DNA of 64,000 nt from Hoylesella loescheii (GTDB lineage Bacteria; Bacteroidota; Bacteroidia; Bacteroidales; Bacteroidaceae), in contig JADYUK010000004.1 of NCBI GenBank assembly GCA_021531755.1, positions 62,001-126,000 of the forward strand. Reading direction: 5' to 3'. This document shows positions 2,097 to 6,327 of the stretch, piece by piece. How positions within the stretch are numbered: the stretch's first letter is position 1; each line of letters opens with the position of its first letter. Below the pieces are notes generated by a model. That model made no database searches and was not told the origin of the DNA. It worked only from the letters and a program-made list of their open reading frames with translations. Made by a program: the position numbers and the translations under genes.

Positions 2097-3497
2097 CTAT
2101 TGAATAATGTCAGGTGACATAAGCATTCGGAAACGAACAACTATATCACGCACGTGCTTCTCTGCTTGCTTAATCTGTTTACCCGTTATACTAATGTTAT
2201 AGTCTTTTCTATTTGTCAAGGCGTGATACAATGCCTCTGCATGATCAAAGCCCATCTTTATCACATACTGAGGAAACTTTTCTCTCAAAGCATTATGGTA
2301 ACTGCGATAGGAATACTTGTCATTGAGCAGTTGGCATTTGTCCAAAGCCGCAAAGATGTACGCAAAGATGGAATCTGTATCATTAAACTGTTTATCTTCT
2401 GCTATAATCTTATCCATCTCCATGATTATCTGGTCACGATATTCTGGGCATATCATTTCTTCAAGAAGCAGACAGGTGTCTCTACGTCCCCTTCTGCCTT
2501 TCAAGTCCATAAGAGCAGAGGCTACAATTTTTTTTGTAGGGCCCTTCTCTATATTCTTCCATTGGCCTTTTGTATATCCTGCCTTCTCAAAACTTGCATA
2601 TACCAGACTTTGTATTGCCTCTATTCCGAGCGTCTTTATAAAGCCAAGATTGCCATCACTCAAAAGATTCTTTGAAATGACTTCAACCGCATTTGAGAAG
2701 CCGTTATCAAAAGCCAACCAGTAAAGGGTGCTATTAAAATGTGGATTATTGCTCAGGATTTTCTGCCTGGTTGCCTCATTATTCAAAGACGAGTCCATAA
2801 TACTACCCAATCTGTCATGGAAAGACAAGTTTCCCGATGACACCATGCTCTTCGTGTATCCATCGGTACCAGGTACAAAGCATGATATTAGTGCCATCAT
2901 ATCCTTGACACCTCCAAGTGATAATATGTCCATCAGACTATTGAATCCTTTCGTCGCAAAAGTCATGTCACCATCACAAGCCTTATTCACACTGTCAAGG
3001 AACTCCGCATACTTTTGGGGATGGTCATAATGCCAACGTCGTAGAGCCAGAAGGTTCAAATCCTTCTCAATGGTTGAAAGTTCTTCTTTCTCCTCCACCT
3101 CCTTTTGCTCCACTACACTCTCCACCATCTCCAGCATGCCAAACCTCCGTAATACATCTTTGCGTATCTCTATGCTTTTAAATGCCTGTTCCAGTCCATC
3201 ATCAAAATACAAAAAGCAACAAAGGGCATACAAAAAACCATCGTTTTCTGCTATGGCTTCTGTGTATAACTCATTAATGGTCATGTTTTCCTCTTGCAGA
3301 CACATAAAAACAGTCAAGAGATTTATTAGCGATTCTATGTCAACATCAAATGTCTTGGATATTTTGGTTATGTCAGTTTCGGTAGCAAGTGCATGACACA
3401 ACTCCTTGAACTCTGCATACTCTTCATGGTTATTTGCTAACCATGTAGATAAAACCTCCTTATCTACTGTAGTTATTTCTGCGTTTCCTTCTTCCAT
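2097..3497 (-). CDS. Unknown 466-aa element protein
   Basis: I do not recognise this family. The frame is open from a GTG at 3581, but the ATG at 3497 begins the coherent protein; the upstream part crosses a 26-bp tandem duplication. The product is soluble, mostly helical and acidic in its first third. A glutamate-rich hinge (about residues 130-145) is followed by a long helical domain and a basic C-terminus. There is no signal peptide, membrane segment or recognisable catalytic motif. It lies between the DUF1016 nuclease and the HTH gene, and could be cargo, a DUF1016 partner or a replication accessory. Confidence 0.6.
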   Translation of the reverse strand: MEEGNAEITTVDKEVLSTWLANNHEEYAEFKELCHALATETDITKISKTFDVDIESLINLLTVFMCLQEENMTINELYTEAIAENDGFLYALCCFLYFDDGLEQAFKSIEIRKDVLRRFGMLEMVESVVEQKEVEEKEELSTIEKDLNLLALRRWHYDHPQKYAEFLDSVNKACDGDMTFATKGFNSLMDILSLGGVKDMMALISCFVPGTDGYTKSMVSSGNLSFHDRLGSIMDSSLNNEATRQKILSNNPHFNSTLYWLAFDNGFSNAVEVISKNLLSDGNLGFIKTLGIEAIQSLVYASFEKAGYTKGQWKNIEKGPTKKIVASALMDLKGRRGRRDTCLLLEEMICPEYRDQIIMEMDKIIAEDKQFNDTDSIFAYIFAALDKCQLLNDKYSYRSYHNALREKFPQYVIKMGFDHAEALYHALTNRKDYNISITGKQIKQAEKHVRDIVVRFRMLMSPDIIQ

Positions 3498-3532
3498 ATA
3501 TAATAAGCGTTTCCTTCTTCCATATATAATAA
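3481..3532. repeat. Perfect 26-bp tandem duplication over the start of the unknown gene
   Basis: Positions 3481-3506 and 3507-3532 are identical. Each copy carries a minus-strand ATG followed by GAAGAAGG. Because 26 is not a multiple of three, the two ATGs are in different frames. The inner one (3497) opens the 466-aa gene; the outer one (3523) opens a 16-codon frame that stops inside the gene. Confidence 0.9.
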
Positions 3533-3581
3533 GATGTGTAGATTTATATAGTTGTTTATACCAAGATATAATCTCGACCAC

Positions 3582-4793
3582 TTATTTTTCCAACTGTTTT
3601 AACAGGAAGTCTTCAAGCGTTTTCTTGTCTGGCAACTGAAGCATGTAGGTTGATACAAAGAGTTGGTTGTCCATGCCGGCGAGAGCGTATTCCACCATCT
3701 TCTTGCCTTTTCTTGTACATAGAAGAATGCCAATAGGAGGATTGTCGCCAGGTTGCATCTCGTGCTCCTTGTAATGAGAAACGTAGGCATTGAGCTGACC
3801 AAGGTTCTGATGTGAGAACTCCTCGTCCTTCAGTTCTATAATTACGCCACAATGCAGGATCCTATTATAGAACACCAAGTCAGGGTAATAATACTCGTCA
3901 TCAATGATAATGCGCTTCTGGCGTGACTCAAAACAGAACCCTTTACCCAGTTCAAGGAGAAAGTCTTGTAGGTGGTCGATAAGAGCATTCTCAATGTCTT
4001 TCTCGCCAACCACCTCATTCGCCTTCAAACCAAGGAACTCAAATGTGAATGGTTGGCGTATCTGTAATTCGTTATTGTCATGACCTTGTAAAGAAGGGAG
4101 CGAGAGCATCTTCTCAGGGTTACTGCTGATACCAGTACGCACATAGAGATTTGTGCTTATTTGACGGCGCAACTCACGCACAGACCATGTACACTTGATG
4201 CACTCCTGTTCGTAGAAGAAACGTGCAAGTGGATCATCAACAGTCATAATCTCGACAATATGCGAAAATGACAGCCTGGAAATAATCATCTGACCTGTCG
4301 TTCTGAATCCGTCCGACACTGTCGGACTTTTTTCTACGTGTTCATTTTCAGTCATTTGAGCATCGCACAATCCCGATGCATCTTTGGTCTCCAACAATTT
4401 GTCCGACACTGTCGGACTTATTACGCCAATGATGTTCTCAACCATTTGAGGATAAAGTCGGTAAAACTTTCTTGAATTCTTGAAAAGGGTTTCTGTCAGT
4501 CCTTTCCTGTTCACTCTTTCTTCCAGTCTCTTCAACAATTGAGTTCCGTACTCAGCCCGATCTTTACCATGTTGTTCAAATTCTATAATGTAATAGCCAT
4601 ATAGCCAGTTCCGCATTGTCTGCATACGGTTTATAGCTTTGACTGCAGTGGTTTGGGCTGCATCATGAGTATCTCGAATTATCTTGGTCAGTTCATCAAA
4701 AGAATGAGTATTCTGACTCCAATCCTCGACAGGCAGTTCCATGCCATCGTGGAGGTATGTTGTAGATTCGTTAGCCATAATTGTATAATTCAT
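3582..4793 (-). CDS. DUF1016/YhcG-family PD-(D/E)XK nuclease
   Basis: This 403-aa protein has the two-domain layout of DUF1016 proteins. An N-terminal helical domain contains WLYGYYIIE and GTQLLKRL (about residues 60-90) and a conserved SW.VREL segment near 203. A C-terminal PD-(D/E)XK nuclease core carries PDLVFYN (304-310) and the catalytic IELK (319-322). Family members are widespread near restriction systems and on mobile elements; their exact role is not settled and recombination or defence has been suggested. Two copies of an SPTVSD peptide 30 residues apart are encoded by identical 17-bp palindromes. It ends one base before the open frame of the next gene, so the two are probably cotranscribed. 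Confidence 0.9.
   Translation of the reverse strand: MNYTIMANESTTYLHDGMELPVEDWSQNTHSFDELTKIIRDTHDAAQTTAVKAINRMQTMRNWLYGYYIIEFEQHGKDRAEYGTQLLKRLEERVNRKGLTETLFKNSRKFYRLYPQMVENIIGVISPTVSDKLLETKDASGLCDAQMTENEHVEKSPTVSDGFRTTGQMIISRLSFSHIVEIMTVDDPLARFFYEQECIKCTWSVRELRRQISTNLYVRTGISSNPEKMLSLPSLQGHDNNELQIRQPFTFEFLGLKANEVVGEKDIENALIDHLQDFLLELGKGFCFESRQKRIIIDDEYYYPDLVFYNRILHCGVIIELKDEEFSHQNLGQLNAYVSHYKEHEMQPGDNPPIGILLCTRKGKKMVEYALAGMDNQLFVSTYMLQLPDKKTLEDFLLKQLEK
4311..4417. repeat. Two identical 17-bp palindromes 90 bp apart inside the DUF1016 gene
   Basis: GTCCGACA-C-TGTCGGAC occurs at 4311-4327 and again at 4401-4417. Each is a perfect palindrome with a one-base centre, encodes part of SPTVSD on the minus strand, and is exactly 30 codons from the other, so frame is kept. 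Confidence 0.9.
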
Positions 4794-4827: not shown

Positions 4828-6327
4828 TTACGACAAAGCGGCGACTATTGCTTTCTTCTCTTCCTCGCTCAACCCCATCAGCATTTCAATCAGCTGCTTG
4901 TTGTCTGCCTTCTTTGCCTTAATTTTTGGAGGCTTGGAGTTAAGCAAGTAGTGGTTGTACTCCAGCATTTTTGCCAATGGGTAAGCACCAATATAGTTTG
5001 AGGTGATGTCACCATTGCCACTATGCCCCATGCTGTCGCTTATGTACTTGTAAGGAACTACGCCAGAATTATTAAGGTTGGTTGCAAAACTATGTCTTGC
5101 CCATGTTGGTGAAGGCTTTTGCTCCATTCCAAGCATATCAGCGACTTTCTTCATGTGTTCCCGAATATAGCGGTTATATCTCTGAATAACCCACACTTCC
5201 TGTTCAGGCGTTATCTCATCACTCATTATCGGGAACACTCTTCTACCCAAGCGAGGTTCGTTACCATACTTGTCAAGAATGGCTTTTAGCTCCGGAGTTA
5301 TTGGGAAGATTACCTCACTTGCGCTTTCGTTTCTGTCGCGTGTCTTGTGGCGGAGAAATCTCATCTGCTTTCCGTGGGTTGAATAGTACCAATCATCATA
5401 TGTCAGGCGGAGTGTATCGGCAAGGTTCTGCCCATCGCCAAGATACATGAACAGGAAGAGTCCAAGGTCACGGAAGATAGCTTGCTTCTCTCTTGGCATA
5501 TACAACTCATGCCCATTTTCATCAACGGCTTCATCCTTCTTCCAAAAGTCATACAGAATACGCATGGTTGCCGTATCAAGAAATTCGTGCTTGCGACTTT
5601 GGGACTTGTTGTAGCCGGAATCTTTGAACATTTCCTTTGTGTCGCCCTTTACAAGTCCTCTTGATATGCAGATATTGACGATAGTTCTGAAGCTACGCAA
5701 ACCGATGGCAATGGTTGTTACGCCAAGGCCGGACTTTTTCATTCGCTTCACCCATTCCTGCACAAAAGCCTTATCAATATCTGCAAAAGCAACATCGGTA
5801 CCCATATCCTTGACAAAACGTCTGTACACATCCTTGTTGCATCTTGCAGAGCCAGCTTTGCCTTCGTTGAGTTTGCCCTGCATGTACTCTTCCCAGATGG
5901 AGTAGATGGTTGTATTCTCGTCCTTCTTGCCCTGGTATATGTCTTGAAGTTTGCGAAGCGAGAAAGTATTGGTGTCAACCAATTCGTTTATAAGCTGGCG
6001 AATCTTCTCCATCCGATTCTTCATCTCGTCACGTTCCGCCATCTGGACACGTCGTCCAGTTTTCTCGTATTCACAAATATCTAACCACTCTTGCAAAGTA
6101 TAAGCCCTTCCAAGCCTAAGGAAAGCTTTCTGTCCTCCATGACAAACACGCACGGCAACAGGAATAGGCTGACTATAATCGCCAGCCTTACGAATGTCAA
6201 GAGTCAAAGACCCATATACACTACCGTTGGAAGACGTGAATTTGACAAGGCACTTGTCTCCCCTTTTGTTGGATTTCTGCTTCTTTATAGCATCTTTTGT
6301 GGTTTGTTCCGCTTTTTGTGACTTCAT
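4828..6327 (-). CDS. Tyrosine recombinase/site-specific integrase
   Basis: The 499-aa protein has an N-terminal arm-binding region (about residues 25-100), a SAM-like core-binding domain (about 140-235) and a C-terminal catalytic domain. The HxxR block appears as ARHSFAT (410-416), followed by MGHS (433-436) and the likely nucleophile Tyr445 in SNY. The first catalytic arginine of box I is not obvious: the segment reads GDGQNLADTL (297-306), as in several Bacteroidales integrases of the IntDOT type. It lies about 180 bp from the attachment site and would catalyse integration and excision at tRNA-Met. The leader holds a TAACTTTGCA promoter and three 9-bp direct repeats. Confidence 0.92.
   Translation of the reverse strand: MKSQKAEQTTKDAIKKQKSNKRGDKCLVKFTSSNGSVYGSLTLDIRKAGDYSQPIPVAVRVCHGGQKAFLRLGRAYTLQEWLDICEYEKTGRRVQMAERDEMKNRMEKIRQLINELVDTNTFSLRKLQDIYQGKKDENTTIYSIWEEYMQGKLNEGKAGSARCNKDVYRRFVKDMGTDVAFADIDKAFVQEWVKRMKKSGLGVTTIAIGLRSFRTIVNICISRGLVKGDTKEMFKDSGYNKSQSRKHEFLDTATMRILYDFWKKDEAVDENGHELYMPREKQAIFRDLGLFLFMYLGDGQNLADTLRLTYDDWYYSTHGKQMRFLRHKTRDRNESASEVIFPITPELKAILDKYGNEPRLGRRVFPIMSDEITPEQEVWVIQRYNRYIREHMKKVADMLGMEQKPSPTWARHSFATNLNNSGVVPYKYISDSMGHSGNGDITSNYIGAYPLAKMLEYNHYLLNSKPPKIKAKKADNKQLIEMLMGLSEEEKKAIVAALS

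Follow-up and report, generated by a model that had tools for sequence, protein, structure and literature searches.

Most of the DUF1016 (YhcG) nuclease genes compared here carry, in frame and typically shortly past the codons of a putative DNA-reading helix, a palindrome that the product of the same gene very probably reads. The palindrome is probably the binding site of that product and would serve some form of self-control, a reading drawn from comparison of genes across the family.

The window, that is, the whole 64,000-nucleotide stretch of Hoylesella loescheii DNA that was analysed, contains on its minus strand (3582–4793) a gene for a DUF1016/YhcG nuclease of 403 residues, identified from its open reading frame and Pfam. 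Both Pfam matches of the protein lie above the curated cut-off (YhcG_C 180.1 bits, cut-off 32.5; DUF1016_N 91.9 bits, cut-off 32.8). The YhcG_C domain, a PD-(D/E)XK nuclease domain, covers residues 244–392 (3618–4064, minus strand), and the catalytic columns of the alignment fall at D305 and E-L-K322. The gene contains two copies of the palindrome GTCCGACA(C/G)TGTCGGAC, which is odd, with 8-bp arms around one unpaired base. In gene order the first site, AATAAGTCCGACAGTGTCGGACAAATT, occupies 4396–4422 of the minus strand in the 27-bp frame of the family (17-bp core 4401–4417) and the second occupies 4306–4332 of the same strand (core 4311–4327). A sequence-only reading of this DNA had noted that the two 17-mers are identical, in frame, 30 codons apart and encode SPTVSD both times, all of which we confirm on the minus strand. 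It had also placed them between the two domains of the protein; they lie instead in an insertion inside DUF1016_N, whose Pfam match is split in two, and after the putative helix-turn-helix recognition helix (window residues 101–113; codons 4455–4493, minus strand, placed from the alignment and the structural model described below, with coordinates worked out by hand). The gene is flanked by a tyrosine-integrase-like gene (4828–6327, minus strand) and a DUF6043 gene (2097–3581, minus strand), and is perhaps the cargo of a mobile element.

The two window copies are the only ones in the H. loescheii genome, in which no third copy of the 17-mer was found, either exact or with up to 2 mismatches, and a reversed control pattern occurred at 5 places. 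In dinucleotide shuffles of the window the average was 0.16 matches when as many as 3 mismatches were allowed, and 0.00 exact matches to the 15-mer TCCGACANTGTCGGA. Among the other 392 genomes of the order, 7 have a single copy of this 15-mer, about the number expected by chance by our own estimate, and the seven loci (up to ~3 kb each) encode no DUF1016 relative detectable by tblastn. Since the string turns up elsewhere in the order outside DUF1016 genes, exact-string counting misses the feature. The check proposed in the sequence-only reading, whether the palindrome clusters in DUF1016 genes, would largely fail for the exact 17-mer, which was found in just one of 20 related loci (L028): the string is specific to a clade, and what is conserved is the palindromic layout. 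The corresponding stretch of the gene in these 20 loci often bears other palindromes, for example GTGCGACACTGTCGCAC, GTGCATCAGTGATGCAC and AAAAGTCCGACGGCGTCGGACTTTT. Some close relatives of the window gene, such as L012–L015 and L017, are weak in this respect, with no palindrome with 8-bp arms in that stretch.

The family occurs in Bacteroidota, in viral contigs and in E. coli K-12. Of the 198 Bacteroidota genomes sampled, 68 contain at least one match to the PF06250 profile (one genome has 11, several of them fragments). The loci scored came from 30 + 80 PF06250 loci plus E. coli K-12, and the final set comprised 163 non-redundant DUF1016 genes, 115 of them nearly all from Bacteroidota and 48 from viral contigs. 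Incomplete hits to the profile were left out (17 of 140 in the first set, 16 of 104 in the viral set), as were near-duplicates (8 of 123 and 40 of 88, respectively, many of the latter being the same contig). A scan of viral sequences with the window protein alone as query gave no match. Each palindrome was scored as the number of paired arm positions out of ten, at offsets 3–12, with synonymous-codon shuffles as the control. By this measure 109 of the 163 genes have an odd palindrome in codon phase 0 in which 9 or all 10 of the arm positions pair, against ~5 in the shuffles; 85 of them have one such site, 19 have two and 5 have three. No 9/10 site was found in 54 of the 163 genes and no 8/10 site in 21. 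The best site in the 115-gene set reaches 10/10 in 38 genes and at least 9/10 in 73 (shuffles 0.25 and ~4), and 95 odd centres that have 9 or more pairs fall on codon position 1, against 2–5 for every one of the five remaining centre classes. The viral-contig genes, analysed as a replication, gave the same picture, with a best site of 10/10 in 21 of 48 and of at least 9/10 in 36 (shuffles 0.1 and 1.2), and with 43 phase-0 odd centres against 0–8 in the other classes (8 in one class, 0–2 in the rest). The window copies score only 8 and 7 on this scale because full pairing is confined to offsets 1–8: at the first site these eight pairs are perfect and 8 of 10 positions pair over offsets 3–12, whilst at the second 7 of 10 do so.

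The 27-bp layout AATT-N7-CA-N-TG-N7'-AATT recurs across the family with sequences that differ between clades. In the 77 best sites it consists of an A/T box at offsets 10–13 (mostly AATT), a central CA-N-TG and a variable middle. Pairing falls to about background at offsets 14–16, with a small unexplained excess at offsets 17–19 and 21 (39 against 28.8 at offset 18), and arms of up to 18 bp occur (for example ATTCAATTGGGAAACAGCCTGTTTCCCAATTGAAT, in L040). A search of the 198 genomes for AATT-N7-CANTG-N7-AATT gave 9 palindromic places (6 or 7 of 7 arm pairs, judged by eye) among the 75 matches listed; 6 of these are in PF06250 genes, 2 are inside a truncated DUF1016 gene or immediately ahead of it (L253) and 1 is outside any DUF1016 gene (L254).

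The position of the site in the gene is also regular. The distance from the codon of residue 60 (reference numbering throughout, unless window residues are specified) to the site centre has a median of 21 codons and is 18, 19, 21 or 22 codons in 96 of 142 genes, so that the typical site lies 18–22 codons past the start of the recognition helix. Some members have further palindromes of the same type in an N-terminal helix or in the linker that precedes the nuclease domain (L139, L140, L178, L252; L100, L091, L072), as if a peptide already there had been bent to accommodate the site. Extra copies of a gene's own core are frequent within the coding sequence, with 64 in 60 of the 142 genes where the cores of other genes give a mean of 8.1, but are at about chance level overall in the 400-nt flanks (5 against 3.9), which is not what an ordinary promoter operator would give. 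A promoter operator was accordingly rejected as the rule, the exceptions being three loci with a copy 18, 35 and 9 nt ahead of the first in-frame ATG (L253, L043 and L061, respectively) and the E. coli copies after the stop codon. In a search blind to the core, strong palindromes within the 300-nt flanks numbered 12 in 48,600 upstream positions and 9 in 42,422 downstream ones, against 7 in 76,861 and 6 in 63,330 further out; most of the strong flank palindromes so found are unrelated in sequence. Inversion between two palindromes was also considered and was dropped since a single strong site is the usual case (85 of the 109 genes that have any).

The window protein gave a structural model (mean pLDDT 64) of insufficient quality in the N-domain, and a model of a compact member, L166, was used (48-sequence alignment, mean pLDDT 83). 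The nuclease domain of this model resembles EndoMS (5gke_A, Z 12.3 over 116 residues, 3.5 Å). Its residues ~9–130 resemble the DNA-binding domains of Noc and ParB, with the Noc-type 7nfu_A at Z 8.2 (98 residues, 3.2 Å) and the ParB-type 7bnr_A at Z 7.7 (94 residues, 3.0 Å); the ParB/Noc matches range over Z 7.2–8.2 for the model of one member, and such values for helical domains may reflect a common arrangement. The Pfam family HTH_ParB matches 15 of the 48 members at E values up to 1 (best 8e-5), and two of ten members scanned singly match it, below the Pfam cut-off, over the part from the palindrome onwards; Pfam gave no HTH_ParB match for the window protein. Sequence searches of solved structures gave no clear relative, with one match at E 0.088, and no CTP-binding domain is among the 25 Pfam families listed for the 48 members. 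The model thus suggests that DUF1016_N resembles a ParB/Noc-like helix-turn-helix domain. Every full member retains the catalytic residues: across the 163 genes D214 is present in 162 (with one gap), E or D at position 229 in 162 and K231 in all 163. At one locus (L031:2970–4032) the N-terminal part of DUF1016 continues into another reading frame, which by its motif looks like that of a Vsr mismatch endonuclease.

If the product of a gene reads the palindrome of that gene, the arm bases and the residues that read them must change together. Co-variation was calculated for 142 genes and 320 alignment columns, the 21 genes with no 8/10 site being excluded and, at each offset, genes with non-pairing arm bases. 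Outside the columns encoded by the palindrome itself (~73–82), the strongest links join offset 7 to residue 60 (Z 8.9), offset 8 to residue 63 (Z 8.8) and offset 3 to residue 113 (Z 7.3). Residues 60, 63 and 64 lie in the helix 59–71 of the L166 model, VRQLERARQFYRM, and correspond in the alignment to T102, K105 and N106 of the window protein. At offset 7, R60 goes with G in 56 of 58 genes and T60 with T in 16 of 19; at offset 8, E63 goes with C in 17 of 17 and W63 with T in 18 of 19; and at offset 3, K or R at 113 goes with C in 34 of 37 and A113 with G in 9 of 9. The window protein, with T102 at position 60 and T at arm offset 7, has a common pairing. The links also hold in 70 disjoint pairs of close relatives, with P values, nominal over 7 offsets × 320 columns, of 2e-4 (7–60), 7e-6 (8–63), 3e-4 (5–64) and 7e-6 (3–113); at offset 7, columns 253 and 6 perform no worse than residue 60 in this test, and offset 3 with residue 114 gave P = 0.69. 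In a parsimony test on the 282 branches of a tree built without the regions concerned, co-change (again with nominal P values) was found for offset 7 with residue 60 (21 of 34 changes, P = 3e-9), offset 9 with residue 63 (24 of 37, P = 8e-11) and offset 3 with residue 85 (20 of 27, P = 9e-16), each residue being the best column for its offset, as well as for offset 6 with residue 64 (20 of 38, P = 2e-7), offset 5 with residue 64 (14 of 26, P = 2e-5) and offset 3 with residue 113 (10 of 27, P = 5e-4); at offset 8 residue 63 came just fourth (P = 5e-3). Residue 85 corresponds to window S177 (codon 4263–4265, minus strand, placed by eye) and residue 113 to window V205 (codon 4179–4181, minus strand, coordinates by hand). 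As the reading residues are encoded 7 to 35 codons from the site centre in the reference, outside the 27 bp, the link is no coding artefact. As judged from the aligned genes, site and protein change together in evolution. The earlier proposal of a functional site, such as one for self-recognition, is in this way strongly supported computationally, the arms co-evolving with the helix by which the gene product is predicted to read DNA.

We propose that a dimer of the DUF1016 N-domain would read the 27-bp palindrome, the recognition-helix residues 60, 63 and 64 contacting the outer arm at offsets 5–9 and residues 85 and 113 the inner arm at offsets 3–4. Each gene would hold its private version of the site, usually one and sometimes two or three, in frame shortly past the recognition-helix codons. 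Bound within the gene, ahead of the codons of the nuclease domain, the dimer could act as a road-block to transcription and so keep a dangerous nuclease scarce. This self-limitation by autorepression is our first choice for the main outcome of binding, although we infer it tentatively and would put it at somewhat under an even chance. A pure repressor would not need the catalytic residues, which are kept, so that the nuclease could also be cutting at its site or be restrained by it.

The first of these outcomes, in which the product reads its palindrome as a target for cleavage or nicking and cuts its own gene, so that DUF1016 genes would be converted, spread or rearranged, we consider unlikely. 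It is consistent with the conserved nuclease residues, with the genome that has 11 PF06250 matches including fragments, and with broken alleles that break at a palindrome (L027 and two in E. coli). E. coli K-12 yhcG has three palindromes, one of them AAAGATTTGGCAGACGCTGTCTGCCAAATCTTT. Among seven E. coli alleles examined, those of B and O25 are broken at nt 406 and nt 385, in the third palindrome, where the yhcG match of L143, L144 and L150 stops (nt 406) or begins (nt 385). A yhcG match is present in 4417 E. coli genomes and covers at least 80% of the gene in 3310, the gene being incomplete in many. The breaks are weak evidence because they are IS-linked or clonally inherited. A nuclease that constantly cut its own gene ought also to be damaging, and the neighbourhood of E. 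coli yhcG showed no methylase that could give protection. Further copies lie outside the gene, one 14 nt past the yhcG stop in K-12, O157 and O102 and a palindrome with the yhcG core 14 nt past the gltD stop in K-12 and O25 (L142:632–658 in K-12). The latter marks the edge of a gltF–yhcF segment that is absent from O157, O102 and B.

Restraint of the nuclease by its site can be taken further, in a proposal that is distinctly unlikely as a whole. DUF1016 nucleases would be self-addressed, the site in the gene being the address of the product, and the DNA of the gene would restrain the nuclease by holding it, so that loss or replacement of the gene would free a DNA-specific nuclease. The gene would then be both a DNA-level antidote and an identity tag, and the site would be kept beside the specificity codons so that recombination could not part specificity from address.

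An mRNA hairpin controlling translation or message decay would account for long perfect arms in a coding sequence and for arms that stay complementary where their sequence differs, but is very improbable. Mismatches in the 9/10 sites comprise 10 G-T, 13 A-C and 32 others (n = 55), and those in the 8/10 sites 16 G-T, 23 A-C and 89 others (n = 128). G-T is thus no commoner than A-C, with no sign of RNA wobble, which argues for a DNA site and not an mRNA hairpin; RNA structure would, moreover, leave the link to the DNA-reading residues unexplained. On the evidence of these mismatches the palindrome is conserved as DNA.

It is equally improbable that the palindrome has no function and is a quasi-palindrome, due to chance or inherited from an ancestor, that template-switch mutation keeps perfect. 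The E. coli copies differ at offsets 7–9 between copies and strains (L142, L146 and L147) and are still complementary, which sequence-specific reading alone does not predict and which is unexplained; template switching accounts for complementarity at positions that differ between copies. It does not explain the fixed edges, the A/T boxes and the central CA-N-TG, the recurrence of one core at a second position within a gene or the co-change with residues 60, 63 and 64. The idea that short palindromic elements were inserted, raised in the sequence-only reading and suggested by in-frame palindromes in several copies in some genes, is barely credible for mobile elements like those of Rickettsia (RPEs) or REPs, since place, codon phase and 27-bp layout recur whilst the sequence is specific to each clade, since neither the window core nor the core of the second DUF1016 gene of this genome is found there outside its own gene, and since RPEs, in the part of PMC4316617 available, are ~100–150 nt long and inserted in many places.

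The reading that we prefer, a site bound by the gene's own product, concerns a known family. The window protein is a direct member of the YhcG/DUF1016/COG4804 nuclease family, the candidate system PDC-S02 of PADLOC, a database of known and candidate systems; the PDC-S02 profile matches it at E 1e-120 and E. coli YhcG at E 2e-131. The accessible text of PMC11719660 lists PDC-S02 as a candidate anti-phage defence system, and that of PMC1189080 likens the DUF1016 nuclease to archaeal Holliday-junction resolvases and describes an N-domain without known fold. Neither a DNA site nor a palindrome for DUF1016 was found in a full-text literature search (mostly open-access and without preprints, so that a report elsewhere is possible) or is mentioned in the available portions of PMC1189080, PMC4316617, PMC2635572 and PMC11341870; as far as this search goes, the site within the gene appears not to be in print, and no substrate of the family came up in it either. 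The palindrome gives a predicted DNA site for most members directly from the gene sequence, together with a first residue-to-base code. The DNA target of DUF1016 becomes testable at once in a laboratory strain, and the many natural variants in the family would allow the specificity of helix-turn-helix domains to be studied on a large scale. It also raises the question of why an apparently active nuclease keeps its own site within its own gene.

Several known systems share features with this arrangement. In the intragenic operators of autorepressed genes a protein-binding site within a coding sequence can block transcription, but in DUF1016 reader and site share one gene throughout the family, at one recurring place, and evolve together. 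In RAYT–REP systems a protein is paired with a gene-linked palindrome, but the REPs are dispersed and outside the gene, whereas the DUF1016 palindromes are inside it. Rickettsia palindromic elements are likewise palindromic DNA in frame in genes, but as selfish elements found in many genes (PMC4316617, in part) they differ from a 27-bp, clade-specific site confined to one family. ParB–parS and Noc–NBS show a likeness in the fold match of the modelled N-domain, the weak Pfam match to HTH_ParB and the dimeric reading of a palindrome, which is predicted here from co-evolution. DUF1016 differs from ParB and Noc in having a C-terminal nuclease domain, and no CTPase domain was seen among the Pfam families listed for its members. 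The parS site is nearly identical across bacteria, and in B. subtilis there is a parS inside spo0J; the DUF1016 site, unlike parS, is 27 bp long, lies in frame in the gene of its own reader and has its own version in each clade. In ParB the outer base is read by R173, in the region of the recognition helix, and the inner base by residue 201 (PMC7383237, in the part available), and the co-variation suggests the same division in DUF1016, with the outer bases read by the recognition helix and the inner bases by a later one.
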